Source: Blastocystis sp. Blastoise
Lineage: Eukaryota > Sar > Bigyra > Opalinata > Blastocystidae
Assembly (NCBI GenBank): GCA_039096225.1
Contig: JBBPEB010000009.1
Coordinates: 372,001 to 436,000 of the forward strand
Direction of reading: 5' to 3'
Length of the DNA stretch: 64,000 bases
Program-made: the position numbers and the translations under genes
The notes under the pieces: generated by a model
The model's input: only the letters and a program-made list of their open reading frames with translations
Told to the model about the DNA's origin: nothing
Database searches by the model: none
Shown: one piece after another, positions 1,803-51,000 of the stretch
Layout: each line of letters begins with the position of its first letter
Position numbering within the stretch: position 1 is the first letter of the stretch

Positions 1803-4800
1803 TTAATTAACTGTAAGAGGTTGTACAATTTGACAAGCACCAGTACCTGATTTAATAACCTATATAAAGAAATAGTAAAATTTTGATAGAATAATAATAA
1901 TAATAATATATAGAATATAATAATAATAAACATAATAATAAACATAAAAAATATAATAAACATAATAATAATAATAAACACAATAATAATAATAAATATA
2001 ATAATAATAATAAATATAATAATAAATATAAACATCATAATACATACTTCACCTGTAGCGATTCTAGAAGAGGGTGATACCATAGAATCTTTATATCCAT
2101 AAAGAGAAGAGTTTTGTAAGAAATGTGTGGTAGTTTCATAAGACATTTGAAGAAGAGGTGAATCACAGTATTCGAGACCTTGTCTATTCATAGGACGGAA
2201 GCCTCCATCTTGAGTCATATAATCAGCAATAAGCATTAAATGTCTATAATCGACACTAATACCATAGACGGCAAAGACACTGTTAATTTGATGTACAATA
2301 GCATAACGAGCAGCTTCAACACCATATGTATGTAAAATAGCACCGATATCATTAGATTGAATGTGATTTACATCAACATCTTCACTAAACTGCCAAACAA
2401 CAGGGAAGTTAATACCTTCACATTGAACAACATATCTATCACTAGCGTTAGCATCGGATTTAGGTTTAAGATAGTTACAATTCTTAATACCTTGAACACT
2501 AGTAACTGTTAACTGTTCTGATACTTCTTCAGCTAAATTCAACTATATATATAATTATATTATTTATTAATAATAAATATATAATAAATATAATAATAAA
2601 AATAATAATAAAAATAATAATAAAAATAATAATAAAAATGAATATAATATAATATAAATACCATAAGGATCTTAGGAGCATTAGTAGGGAAGTCTAATTC
2701 AATAACCACTTCATTTGTAGGTATATAATAATAGACGCGACGATAGAACTTTACACGTTGACACATACCAAAGGGTTCAATAAATTCACATCCTTTAGGA
2801 AGATCAGCAATTAATAAGGAATAATCAACCTATATATAGATATAGAATCATAATAATTATAAATAATAATAATAATAATAATAATAATAATAATAATAAT
2901 AATTAAATAATAATATATATACAGCAGTAGAGACAGTTGAGTGTTTAGTTGATTTAGCTTTAGTAAAAGTAGTCACATCTTGTTCTTTAATCTTCATTTG
3001 AAGGTCTTTAGCAGTCTTAATATCAGATATATCAACATCAGGATATTTATTCTTAAAAGTAACTAAATCAGCTTGGAAGCGAGAAGCTAAACGTTGTTTC
3101 TTATTCTCTTTAGCTTCTTCCGTTTCATCATCACTTTCTAATTCATTAATATCATTATTATCACTGTCACTATCACTATTATTATTATTATCTTCTTTCT
3201 TCTCTTCTTCTTCATCAGATTTCTCCATATAATTATCATCATCCTCATAAGCAGCTGTTTCTTTCTTAGAACCAAACTTTAATGTACCTTGTTCATCATT
3301 ATCTTCTTGTTCATCATCGTCATCATCATCATCTTCGGAGTCCGCTACGGGTTTTACTATATCCTTTTGTTGATTCTTTGATAATTTGACTTGATCATTA
3401 AGAGAAGTATCTTTAGCTCCGAAGAGACTATTTAAGTTATATACATTACCACCTCTCTTGGCTTTCTTTAATTCTTTTATAATCTATATAATAATAATAA
3501 TAAAGATAAACATAATAATAATAATAAAGATAATAACAATATTATATATATACAGCTTGACAGAAATTAGGGAGATATCCTTCTTTGATGAATCCCAGGA
3601 GAGTTTCTTTGTTAATACCGTGAACTCTATTAATATCCTCTATATTAGCAAGGTGCATATGAACTTTATATCTACGAACATAACCACTATTAGGTACCAA
3701 AGGATCTTTCTTAACAATTTGTTCATAAACAGTGAAATTCTCATGGGGATCTAATAATTCTTCTAATTGTAAACGATGTAATTCTCTTACTATATTCTCA
3801 GCCTATTTAAATAATATAATAAGATAATAATAATAATATATAATAATATATAATAATATATAATAATAATATATATATATACATGTATTTGTTGTCTATC
3901 TGCCTTTAAAGGTATTTCCATGAGAGGAGTCTTAATGGCCTGAGAAGCAGTCATAATAATTTCACGTAAACGAGGAATACCTATAGTAATATTAATAATA
4001 ATAATAATAATAATAATAATAATAATAATAATAATAATAATAATAATATTAATAATAAAAATAATAAAATAAAAATAAAAATAATAAAATAAAAATAAAA
4101 ATTAATAAAAAAAAAAAAAAAATAATAATAATAATAAAAAAAATAATAAATATAAAAATGAATAATAATAATATACCAAGTGTAACATTAACGGCACCAT
4201 GTCCAGCTAAATGGAATGTATTTAAAGTCATTTGAGTAGAAGGTTCACCAATAGATTGACCTGTAATAACACCTACAGCTTCACCTGGTTCTATTTCACT
4301 TCTCATACTCTTTAACCACATTAATAATTTAAATCCACTAGCTTCAATTTCACCTTTACCCTCCTCTTTCTTCTTCTCTGTTTCTTTATCTAATAATATA
4401 CCTTCAGGATTACGTTTACAATAATTAACTAATTGATCTTCAAATTGTTCACTAACTGCACCTACATTTCTACTTATATTTAATTGAGTATTCACAGGAT
4501 CAGGTACTCTTAAACGAATTATAGGAATACGAACACCATATTCACTATCAAAGATAACCGCGGGAATCTTCTTACATTTTGTTTGATCATCACTATAAAC
4601 AATATCATATTTAATAATATTATTCTTATTTCTAATATTGATAATAACCGCGGGTACGAAGTCTCTACTAATATTACCTAATCTCCATTCTCCATTAGGA
4701 TTCACAAGACGACGTGCTTCTATAACACTACTTTCTTTATATAAATATATATCACCTTTTTCATTACAAGCTTTTTCTTCTTCTAATTCTTTCATAACAA

Positions 4801-48000: not shown

Positions 48001-51000
48001 GCTTAATTTTGCTTTTATGTTAGGTTTAGTGTTTATAATAAAAGTATATTTGATCTTTATCTGACACTTATTAATTTTTAAATTGTGACTAAACTGTTTT
48101 TTGCTTTGTTTTTATGTAGTTTGAGGCCTTTGTTACTTGATACAATATTAGTGATTTAGAAGATAAAGAAAATTGTACTAAATCGTCCTCAGGGCTCAAA
48201 TTGGTACCCTGGTTTTTCGACCTCTGAATCAGAATATATGTAAATTGACAATTAAATTTACCGTTAGCCTCGTGTTAATATGAAATTTAAAAATAATAAA
48301 TTAAAGATCCATACGTTTTGTGGGATTGATAAAAAATATTTCCCCATGTTTTTTTAATTGTCTTACATTTTTTGGGGTATCAAGAGCCAATAAAAACGAC
48401 TAAAAAATTGTTTTTGTTCTTTTATTATATTTTATTTTTAATCGTTAAAAATTCGGTGAAACTACATGTTATTGTTTGACTGTGTTTCAAAAGTTCTCCC
48501 GTGTTTAGAGGGTTGTGTAAAATTGAGTTTAGTGCAATAAAGCATTTAAACGAAATGGGAATTTTTTTGCCTATTCTCATATATATAGTAATGATTAATG
48601 ATAATTTATTTCTGTTATCATGAAAGACAACTAGTTCAAATTTTATATTATATTTTTATTCATTATTATTTTCATTACAAAAGTACTATTAATACTATAT
48701 ATATATATAGTTATCAATAGGTATTGGATATATTGGTTTATCATTAATTGATAAAACGCCAGAAGAATTATTATATGTATATTTCTATAATATTCTTGGG
48801 AATTATATATATTCAAAACAACAACATAATTACTCATTGTCTATTGATTCTTTACAAGTATATATATATATATATATATATATATATATATATATATATA
48901 TATATATATATTATTATTATTATTATTATTAATAGATTGATGTCCAAACTCCAACTCCCTTGTTCCCATCGATGGTTTATATTAATAGAAAGAGTATTCA
49001 GTCTATTTCAGAAGGTAAAAATGATTCTGAAATGTATCGAATGATTAATCGAAGAGGTGAATGCTCAGGATGTGGAATAGAATTCAAACAAAATGTGCCA
49101 TTTCTACATATATGCTGCACATTGTATATATAATAATAATTATAATAATAATAATAATATATATATATATATATATATATATTCATTTTATTATTTTTAT
49201 TCTTTATCTATGTTTAATTGTTTAATAATGTATGCTAGACAACTATATACCTTTTTTTGAATCATTTTAATTCTATTTATACTATTATATATAGAATAGA
49301 AAATAATAATAATAATACATTATATATAAATGATGGTTATTTTTCAATGGAAAAACTTATTTTAAAACTTGACGAACAATTTATACTTAAATTATATCGA
49401 ACATTTGCTGATGTTACTGTATATATATATATATATTATAAGTATTTATAATAATTGAAAAGAGTTTATATATATTTCTATATATATATTATAATTATTT
49501 ATAATTATTGAAAAGAGTCTATATATATATATATATATATAGCAATTACGTATATCTACTCCTTCTATCTTCTTATCTAAAAATACTCATCGAACACCCT
49601 TACAACAATTATTATCAAATATATATACAGAACGATATATAGTATTATTATTACAAAAAATAGAAAGAAATAAATATGTTTCTATTCGAGAAATTGAAAT
49701 TATGCCGATTTCCATAGAATTAACAATAAGTACTAGTCCAAATTCAGAAATAACCACGGGAACCTCTCTAACGGTAACTGATAAAGGAGTTAATTTTGAA
49801 AATCGTTCTATGCAAATAATGAGTTTATGCATAAAAGACTCTATATTAACGTATATATATATATATATATATATATATATTATTATTATTAACATATATA
49901 TAGAACAGATGAATTATGGAAGCGATTATTTGTCCATTTCAAAAAACAGATTATTCTTAAAGTGTATATATATACAATTATTATAGTTATTAATATTATA
50001 TAGCATGATTATTATTATTATTATTATATACTTATTATTATTATATAGTTTATCTATATTAACATCTACCGATTATCTTGGAGATTTCTATTATACTATT
50101 AGTAGTATTCAGAAGCAATTAGTCAGTCTGAATGCATCTGAATATGATGATGGTATCAATTTAAGTAAAGTTGGGAATGTTACTGGAAGTATTGTTGATG
50201 GTATTTGGCACACTACTTCTAAAGTATATTATTATATTTATATTTATATATTAGTGTATCACCTATTATTTTATTATGTATTGTTATGTATTATTACATT
50301 AATATTTCCAATTTTTGTTTATTTTTATTAGTAGTATATATATATTACCTAAATATTAATTGTTATCATTTCTGTTTCTCTCTCTCTCTCTATATATATA
50401 TATAGATGTCGAAAGGTGTGGGTACTGTATTTACTATGATAACACTAGATAAAGACTTCAAAAGAGAACGAAGTAATATGTTTACAAAAAGAAATAAAAA
50501 CCCATTATTAGGTATATATATATTTTTTTTTTTTTTTTTTTTTTTTTTTTTATATTATATTATATTATATTATATTATATTATATTATATTATATTATAT
50601 TATATTATATTATATTATATATAGATATAAGAGATGGTGCTGAGGGATTTGTTAAGAGTGTCACAAGTGCCGTTACAGGTGTAGTCAGTCAGCCAATGAA
50701 AGGAGCGAAACAGCAGGGATTCAAAGGATTTATGGACGTATGGATATATAATACATATTATTATATTATATTATATTATATTATATATACAATTTATGTT
50801 TTATGTATTATATACATCTATAATGAAATATATTTATTGTATTCAATAATAATATATATATCCCCTTTATTCCCTCTATAGGGTTTGGGTCGTTGTCTTA
50901 TCGGCGTTCCTATGAAGCCATTAGTAGGATTATTTGATATGGCCAGTAAAACTATAGAAGCCGTTGAGAAAACTACTAAGAAATTGTTTAAACTACATAA

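Follow-up and report, generated by a model that had tools for sequence, protein, structure and literature searches.

The palindrome CCCRYGGG is strongly over-represented throughout the genome of the stramenopile Blastocystis sp. Blastoise, where it recurs in exons of unrelated genes. It was noticed in a 64,000-base stretch of that genome (hereafter the window; C3:372001-436000) by an earlier note made from the letters alone, and we followed it through the whole assembly of 33,333,487 bases in 34 contigs. The window contains six copies against 0.03 expected, and none of 100 dinucleotide shuffles reaches six; the note's argument that chance could not supply them therefore holds, with its estimate of about 20% GC corrected to the 23% measured over the parts of the genome that were read. 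Genome-wide, CCCRYGGG occurs at 1681 places in 33.33 Mb (about 50 per Mb), whereas the same pattern read backwards, GGGYRCCC, occurs at 76, and CCCYRGGG, a palindrome of matched composition, at 41. The whole-assembly count that the note had proposed as a check thus lies far from the composition-matched expectation. We give about an even chance to the reading that the site is bound by a predicted homodimeric protein and is retained in exons by selection.

Abundance and anatomy of the site

The enrichment extends beyond the octamer. The 12-mer TTCCCRYGGGAA is present in 442 copies and the full 14-bp site ATTCCCRYGGGAAT in 224 copies genome-wide, with none for the control in either case, so that the TT and AA flanks described in the earlier note are genuine. 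Allowing at most one mismatch to TTCCCRYGGGAA gives 1763 places against 29 for the control, and the sites with exactly one mismatch (1763 minus 442) are therefore themselves enriched. Within a 264-kb set consisting of the window and C1:1-200000, no 8-bp palindrome with three or more occurrences exceeds its dinucleotide expectation by as large a factor as CCCGCGGG. Compared with 40 synonymous shuffles, and with low-complexity words set aside, CCGCGGGA ranks first among exon 8-mers. Another palindrome in the 264-kb set, the 12-bp TTGGGTACCCAA, has 4 copies against 0.003 expected and is perhaps a repeat.

A matrix of 42 sites, selected for their likeness to the consensus and hence sharpened, yields aTTCCCRYGGGAAt. 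In sites picked in this way, the outer C is retained in 75% and the next two positions in 89% and 95%, and the flanking position is A at a frequency of 0.69 and T at 0.18. The half-sites have a preferred spacing of 2 bp: with this spacer, TTCCCNNGGGAA is found 545 times genome-wide against once for the control, whereas pooling the spacers of 3-12 bp yields 220 places against 16; of the 50 listed with these longer spacers, 32 contain CCCRYGGG itself. The centre is RY in 442 of the 545 TTCCCNNGGGAA copies. The remaining 103 copies may be a second population; eight of the nine listed have AA or TT at the centre, and one copy, at C1:17405, is predicted to be non-coding.

At the centre, the base in one half depends little on that in the other. 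AC (18), GT (14), GC (10) and AT (8) make up the centres of 50 listed perfect 14-mers, close to the 25 mixed, 13.5 GC and 11.5 AT expected for independent halves, and the central positions are A or T in 48% (G/C, 0.52). This near-independence fits two YGGGAAT half-sites, each of which we infer to be read by one subunit of a putative protein. On the sense strand of 46 coding sites, AC and GT centres are about equally frequent (16 and 14), as would be expected if the site is read on double-stranded DNA rather than on messenger RNA. The symmetry, the preferred 2-bp spacing and the strand-neutrality together favour a dimeric protein as the predicted binder of the element.

Placement of the sites in predicted exons

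Exons were predicted with our own hidden Markov model (HMM), trained on the 264-kb set. One gene model was checked against the annotation: SND1, from which intron-like stretches were taken out by hand before comparison, is 98% identical to the NCBI protein WA158_000022 across the whole query. With the motif masked, the coding posterior exceeds 0.5 in 37 of 41 perfect 14-mers. Control sets of 150 positions were coding in 55% of cases when drawn at random, in 73% and 72% for 14-mers with at least 7 and at least 8 G/C, respectively, and in 45-57% for GC-rich 8-bp cores. Stricter decoding leaves 32 of the 41 as coding, and several of the other nine look like short exons by eye. The octamer itself occurs 14 times in 123 kb of predicted exons and once in 140 kb of non-coding DNA. 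On these predictions, the exon bias of the site appears to exceed what composition would give.

The encoded protein does not account for the exonic copies. In ten shuffles that keep both the protein and the codon pool, the mean is 0.3 exonic octamers and the largest number is 1, against the 14 observed, and all three reading frames are used (19, 23 and 4 of 46 coding sites in frames 0, 1 and 2). A peptide or codon-usage origin is thereby rejected, in agreement with the earlier note, which had pointed to the several frames and had argued that amino acids are not the cause; no single conserved peptide motif underlies the sites.

Site density rises with the number of introns per kb of gene, from 0.07 sites per kb below 0.5 introns to 0.19 at 0.5-1.5 and 0.33-0.43 above 1.5. 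Of 28 exonic sites, 4 fall in exons of at least 1 kb (56 kb in total) and 24 in shorter ones (67 kb); the two classes are less far apart in the number of near matches expected from synonymous shuffles. We also examined a set of 96 sites, 83 of them coding, for their distance from exon edges. The last 40 bp before the exon 3′ edge hold none of the 83 (controls, 8-10%), 24 lie 40-70 bp from that edge (controls, 7-11%), and 5 lie within 40 bp of the 5′ edge (controls, 8-11%); in 37 bounded exons there are 5 near-edge sites against 17.3 expected. Words like the 5′ splice word GTATRT are rare at +10 to +40 of the sites (0.04 against 0.28 per 100 bp), and TATATATA is enriched about fourfold 70-150 bp downstream and about 2.5-fold 70-150 bp upstream. 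We regard the apparent site-free gap at the exon 3′ edge as suggestive only. Centring within exons as such was discarded as a separate feature, being partly an effect of the HMM, since GC-rich controls are similarly centred. Across the 264-kb set, GTATAT is by far the commonest 5′-splice-like word, and introns contain much (TA)n, a repeat that translates as an open frame IYIYIY and confuses gene finding based on open reading frames.

Comparison with homologues bears on how single sites arose. The TBL1 site aligns without gaps to TBL1XR1, with NSRGDKV corresponding to NAAGDKV, and C1:75264, a site in SND1, is likewise ungapped against the SND1 structure 3bdl. Among six other SND1 homologues, four are ungapped at C1:75264, one has two extra residues there and one has two extra just after it, and none is missing more residues than Blastoise. 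Insertion of the word is therefore ruled out at the TBL1 site and at C1:75264, both in conserved genes. The other SND1 site, at C1:75107, adjoins a small insertion or deletion, and the linker that holds the two sites of the RNA polymerase I gene has no alignment to the three matches shown. The sites are also clustered: of the gaps between neighbours in the first 50 listed, 11 are shorter than 1 kb, where 3.3 would be expected. Tandem duplication was rejected as the source of the clusters, as direct repeats of at least 60 bp in three of them (L025-L027) are simple-sequence tracts only. One dense cluster, L025 (C4:237000-244000), has 11 listed sites in about 5 kb, mostly in predicted exons of minus-strand genes.

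Explanations for the iterated word

In the preferred reading, the motif is a single 14-bp dyad-symmetric element, two inverted YGGGAAT half-sites, to which a homodimer of a sequence-specific protein would bind in double-stranded DNA. The word itself would be under selection, which would build and keep it in exons by way of the codons chosen and of such amino-acid changes as the proteins tolerate, at a higher density in intron-rich genes. As the weakest step, the bound protein would most likely act in gene bodies, on chromatin or transcription, by marking exons that are short and richer in GC than the (TA)n-rich introns around them. The fuller proposal of a genome-wide exon mark, in which the palindrome, bound by one dimeric protein and written into the codons of intron-rich genes at least about 40 bp from exon 3′ ends, would act by nucleosome placement or during transcription, seems to us rather unlikely.

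Several observations weigh against selection for a bound site in exons. Transcription-factor sites do not usually lie in exons, and searches with COE, CSL and CG-1 profiles, for which no working control was available, did not find the binding factor. In the 140 kb of non-coding DNA, the reversed GGGYRCCC occurs four times and CCCRYGGG once. Gene age, and not exon structure, may underlie the trend with intron density. The exon-edge results depend on our own HMM exons; GC-rich controls also fall short near edges (58 to 81 observed against 94 to 116 expected), and with a broader word list, a GTATAT-like word lies within 40 bp downstream of 4 of the 83 sites. Single sites appear young: the residues SRG at the SND1 site C1:75264 are present in none of the six homologues, which makes that site look recent. 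Clustering of sites in genes could also result from a local mutational drive.

Such a drive, in which word-specific mutation, mismatch repair or recombination converts near matches, as in HIP1 or uptake-like systems, and leaves a palindrome without function, is in our judgement somewhat doubtful as the source of the word. It predicts a strong enrichment of one-off forms, as is found. According to the available text of PMC4390886, highly iterated palindrome (HIP) words of cyanobacteria occur 500-2500 times per million bases, deviate most at their first and eighth positions and are generally accompanied by a DNA methyltransferase for the word, with exceptions noted; over-representation is argued there, for some HIP words, to be possibly an epiphenomenon of repair. 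The Blastocystis word shares with HIP1, as described in that text, the character of a short, GC-rich, dispersed palindrome that is by far the most over-represented word, with frequent one-off forms whose deviations concentrate at the outer positions, the outermost C/G being the most tolerant of the core. To this extent the likeness to cyanobacterial palindromes drawn in the earlier note is borne out; it fails in density, which is at least tenfold lower than the HIP range of PMC4390886, and, as far as a search for cytosine-5 enzymes goes, it does not extend to the cognate methyltransferase. A six-frame, exon-by-exon search with PF00145 (cytosine-5 methyltransferase), which split genes could escape, gave one genome match, whose best structural matches are DNMT2 proteins, and a cognate enzyme is thus not in evidence (adenine and N4 enzymes were not searched). 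The same DNMT2-like match, together with the A or T at 48% of central positions, where CpG is lost, weakens the role in methylation that the note had considered. Unlike HIP1, moreover, the word belongs to a eukaryote with introns and has a degenerate RY centre and a strong exon bias, and a drive should affect all DNA, whereas the sites show an exon bias beyond composition and are few in intron-poor genes.

Distinctly less probable, in our view, is that these are ordinary sites of a known factor type (COE/EBF-, E2F- or CSL-like) that are exonic by happenstance. In the available text of PMC4512700, ATTCCCNNGGGAAT is the in-vitro EBF site, CCCnnGGGA is the in-vivo Collier motif, COE proteins arose with metazoans, and Collier peaks are intronic or intergenic. 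The consensus is identical to that EBF site, including the 2-bp spacer, and the COE/EBF site is bound by a dimer, but 37 of 41 perfect sites are predicted to be coding, unlike the Collier peaks (PMC4512700, available text), and, again unlike COE/EBF, the centre is mostly RY. Profiles for the COE domain (PF16422), CSL (PF09271) and CG-1 of CAMTA (PF03859) had no match in the genome, nor did any of them match in a positive control. Five E2F/DP winged-helix pieces exceed the Pfam cut-off, each with an RR(I/V)YD motif (C29:119149, C25:361676, C13:728016, C29:1224547 and C13:966852). The E2F/DP site is TTTSSCGC, and TTCCCGCGGGAA resembles two overlapping copies of it. However, the flank of the palindrome is ATT and not TTT, and nearly half of its central positions are A/T, which breaks the CGC core; although the genes exist, an E2F site was rejected on this misfit of flank and centre. 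A conserved peptide motif, a codon-usage effect or the footprint of a mobile element is the least credible of the alternatives, to the point of being nearly negligible: peptides do recur at the sites, as IP(A/V/T/M)G, (D/N)S(H/R)GN and FP(R/W)E, but they are three frames of one DNA word, and the shuffles that preserve them give 0.3 octamers where 14 occur. Moreover, the TBL1 site and one SND1 site have no insertion relative to homologues, and the flanks of clustered sites contain no repeats beyond simple sequence.

Other systems offer partial parallels. DNA uptake sequences of Neisseria and Haemophilus are bacterial, non-palindromic words maintained through DNA uptake; the Blastocystis word resembles them as an iterated short word, also present in coding sequence, with many one-off copies, and we know of nothing like them in Blastocystis. 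Duons, exonic transcription-factor sites contributed by many factors with few sites each, share the overlap of a DNA-binding constraint with coding sequence and differ from the one dominant word found here. To our knowledge, iterated palindromes are known only from prokaryotes, and their cause is debated. Our literature searches (titles, in part only as listings) found no report of a eukaryotic highly iterated palindrome or of a palindrome in Blastocystis, and TTCCCGCGGGAA was not found as a search term; 'palindrom' is also absent from the main text, as available, of PMC5608401, which describes the Blastocystis genome. Within the reach of these searches, the iterated palindrome of Blastocystis is undescribed.

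Sites and genes of the window, and what an iterated word would mean

All six perfect and nine one-off sites named in the earlier note lie where it placed them. Its one-off list is correct and incomplete: the window has 16 one-mismatch sites, and those at 3740, 10380, 33834, 34205, 40843, 43774 and 62062 were unnamed, of which 43774 also differs at an outer base. The note's placement of named sites in exons is supported by a coding posterior of at least 0.78 for all 15, and the exception it made for 9225 is not, as that site has a posterior of 0.94 with the motif masked and is probably exonic too. Among its gene labels, POLR1A (the large subunit of RNA polymerase I) and TBL1 (a TBL1-type WD40 protein) are supported, TRAPPC13 scores 26 bits, slightly below the Pfam cut-off of 27.7, and the peptides submitted for EFR3 and VPS13, two of them shortened, had no supporting Pfam match.

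Six of these sites are perfect. At 22960-22967, in a minus-strand exon, TTCCCGCGGGAA is complete, and CCCGTGGG at 23278-23285 lies in the same exon; CCCACGGG occurs at 25037-25044 in a minus-strand exon and again at 43580-43587 in a plus-strand exon. The site CCCGCGGG at 28529-28536 encodes NSRGD in the TBL1-type WD40 gene, where it is ungapped relative to TBL1XR1, and TTCCCATGGGAA is complete at 45394-45401 in a plus-strand exon. The one-off sites begin with two copies of ACCGCGGG in the minus-strand RNA polymerase I large-subunit gene, at 4557-4564 in a variable linker and at 4647-4654 in the same exon and linker, the latter with poor flanks and more than two mismatches to the 12-mer. They continue with CCCGTGGA at 9225-9232, probably in a short exon, and with two sites of poor flank fit in predicted exons, ACCGCGGG at 12353-12360 (plus strand) and CCCGCGGA at 15259-15266 (minus strand). 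The word CCCGCGGT occurs at 15859-15866 in the TRAPPC13-like gene and at 24431-24438 in a probable exon (posterior 0.78), the latter with poor flank fit. Plus-strand exons hold CCCGCGGA at 38731-38738, ACCATGGG at 43774-43781, which the note had left out, and ACCACGGG at 49753-49760.

A large, intron-poor PF07534 (TLDc) family is represented at 29678-31159 (minus strand) of the window and at C1:82742-84252 (minus strand), neither with a strong site; the window protein has 266 homologues at E ≤0.001, and of the 120 listed, 119 are named as Blastocystis sp. Blastoise and the remaining one is the window's own. Frames resembling Helitron or PIF1-type helicases or transposons were seen by eye at about 55350-62026 of the window and at C1:140864-145455 (both minus strand), and the only site in the latter, CCAGTTGG at 144544, is weak. 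Very long, single-exon, repetitive surface-type genes with Ig-like and discoidin-like repeats, again judged by eye, lie at C1:8445-15449, 46959-51822, 156954-160345 and 178916-186009.

An iterated palindrome in a eukaryote with introns provides exon, intron, frame and strand as natural controls for distinguishing among selection, mutational drive and protein binding. Codon-based analyses of the Blastocystis genome, including those of the ratio of nonsynonymous to synonymous substitution (dN/dS), could be biased by such a word. If the palindrome is a binding site, a single factor would constrain codon use and some amino acids across many genes of this gut protist.

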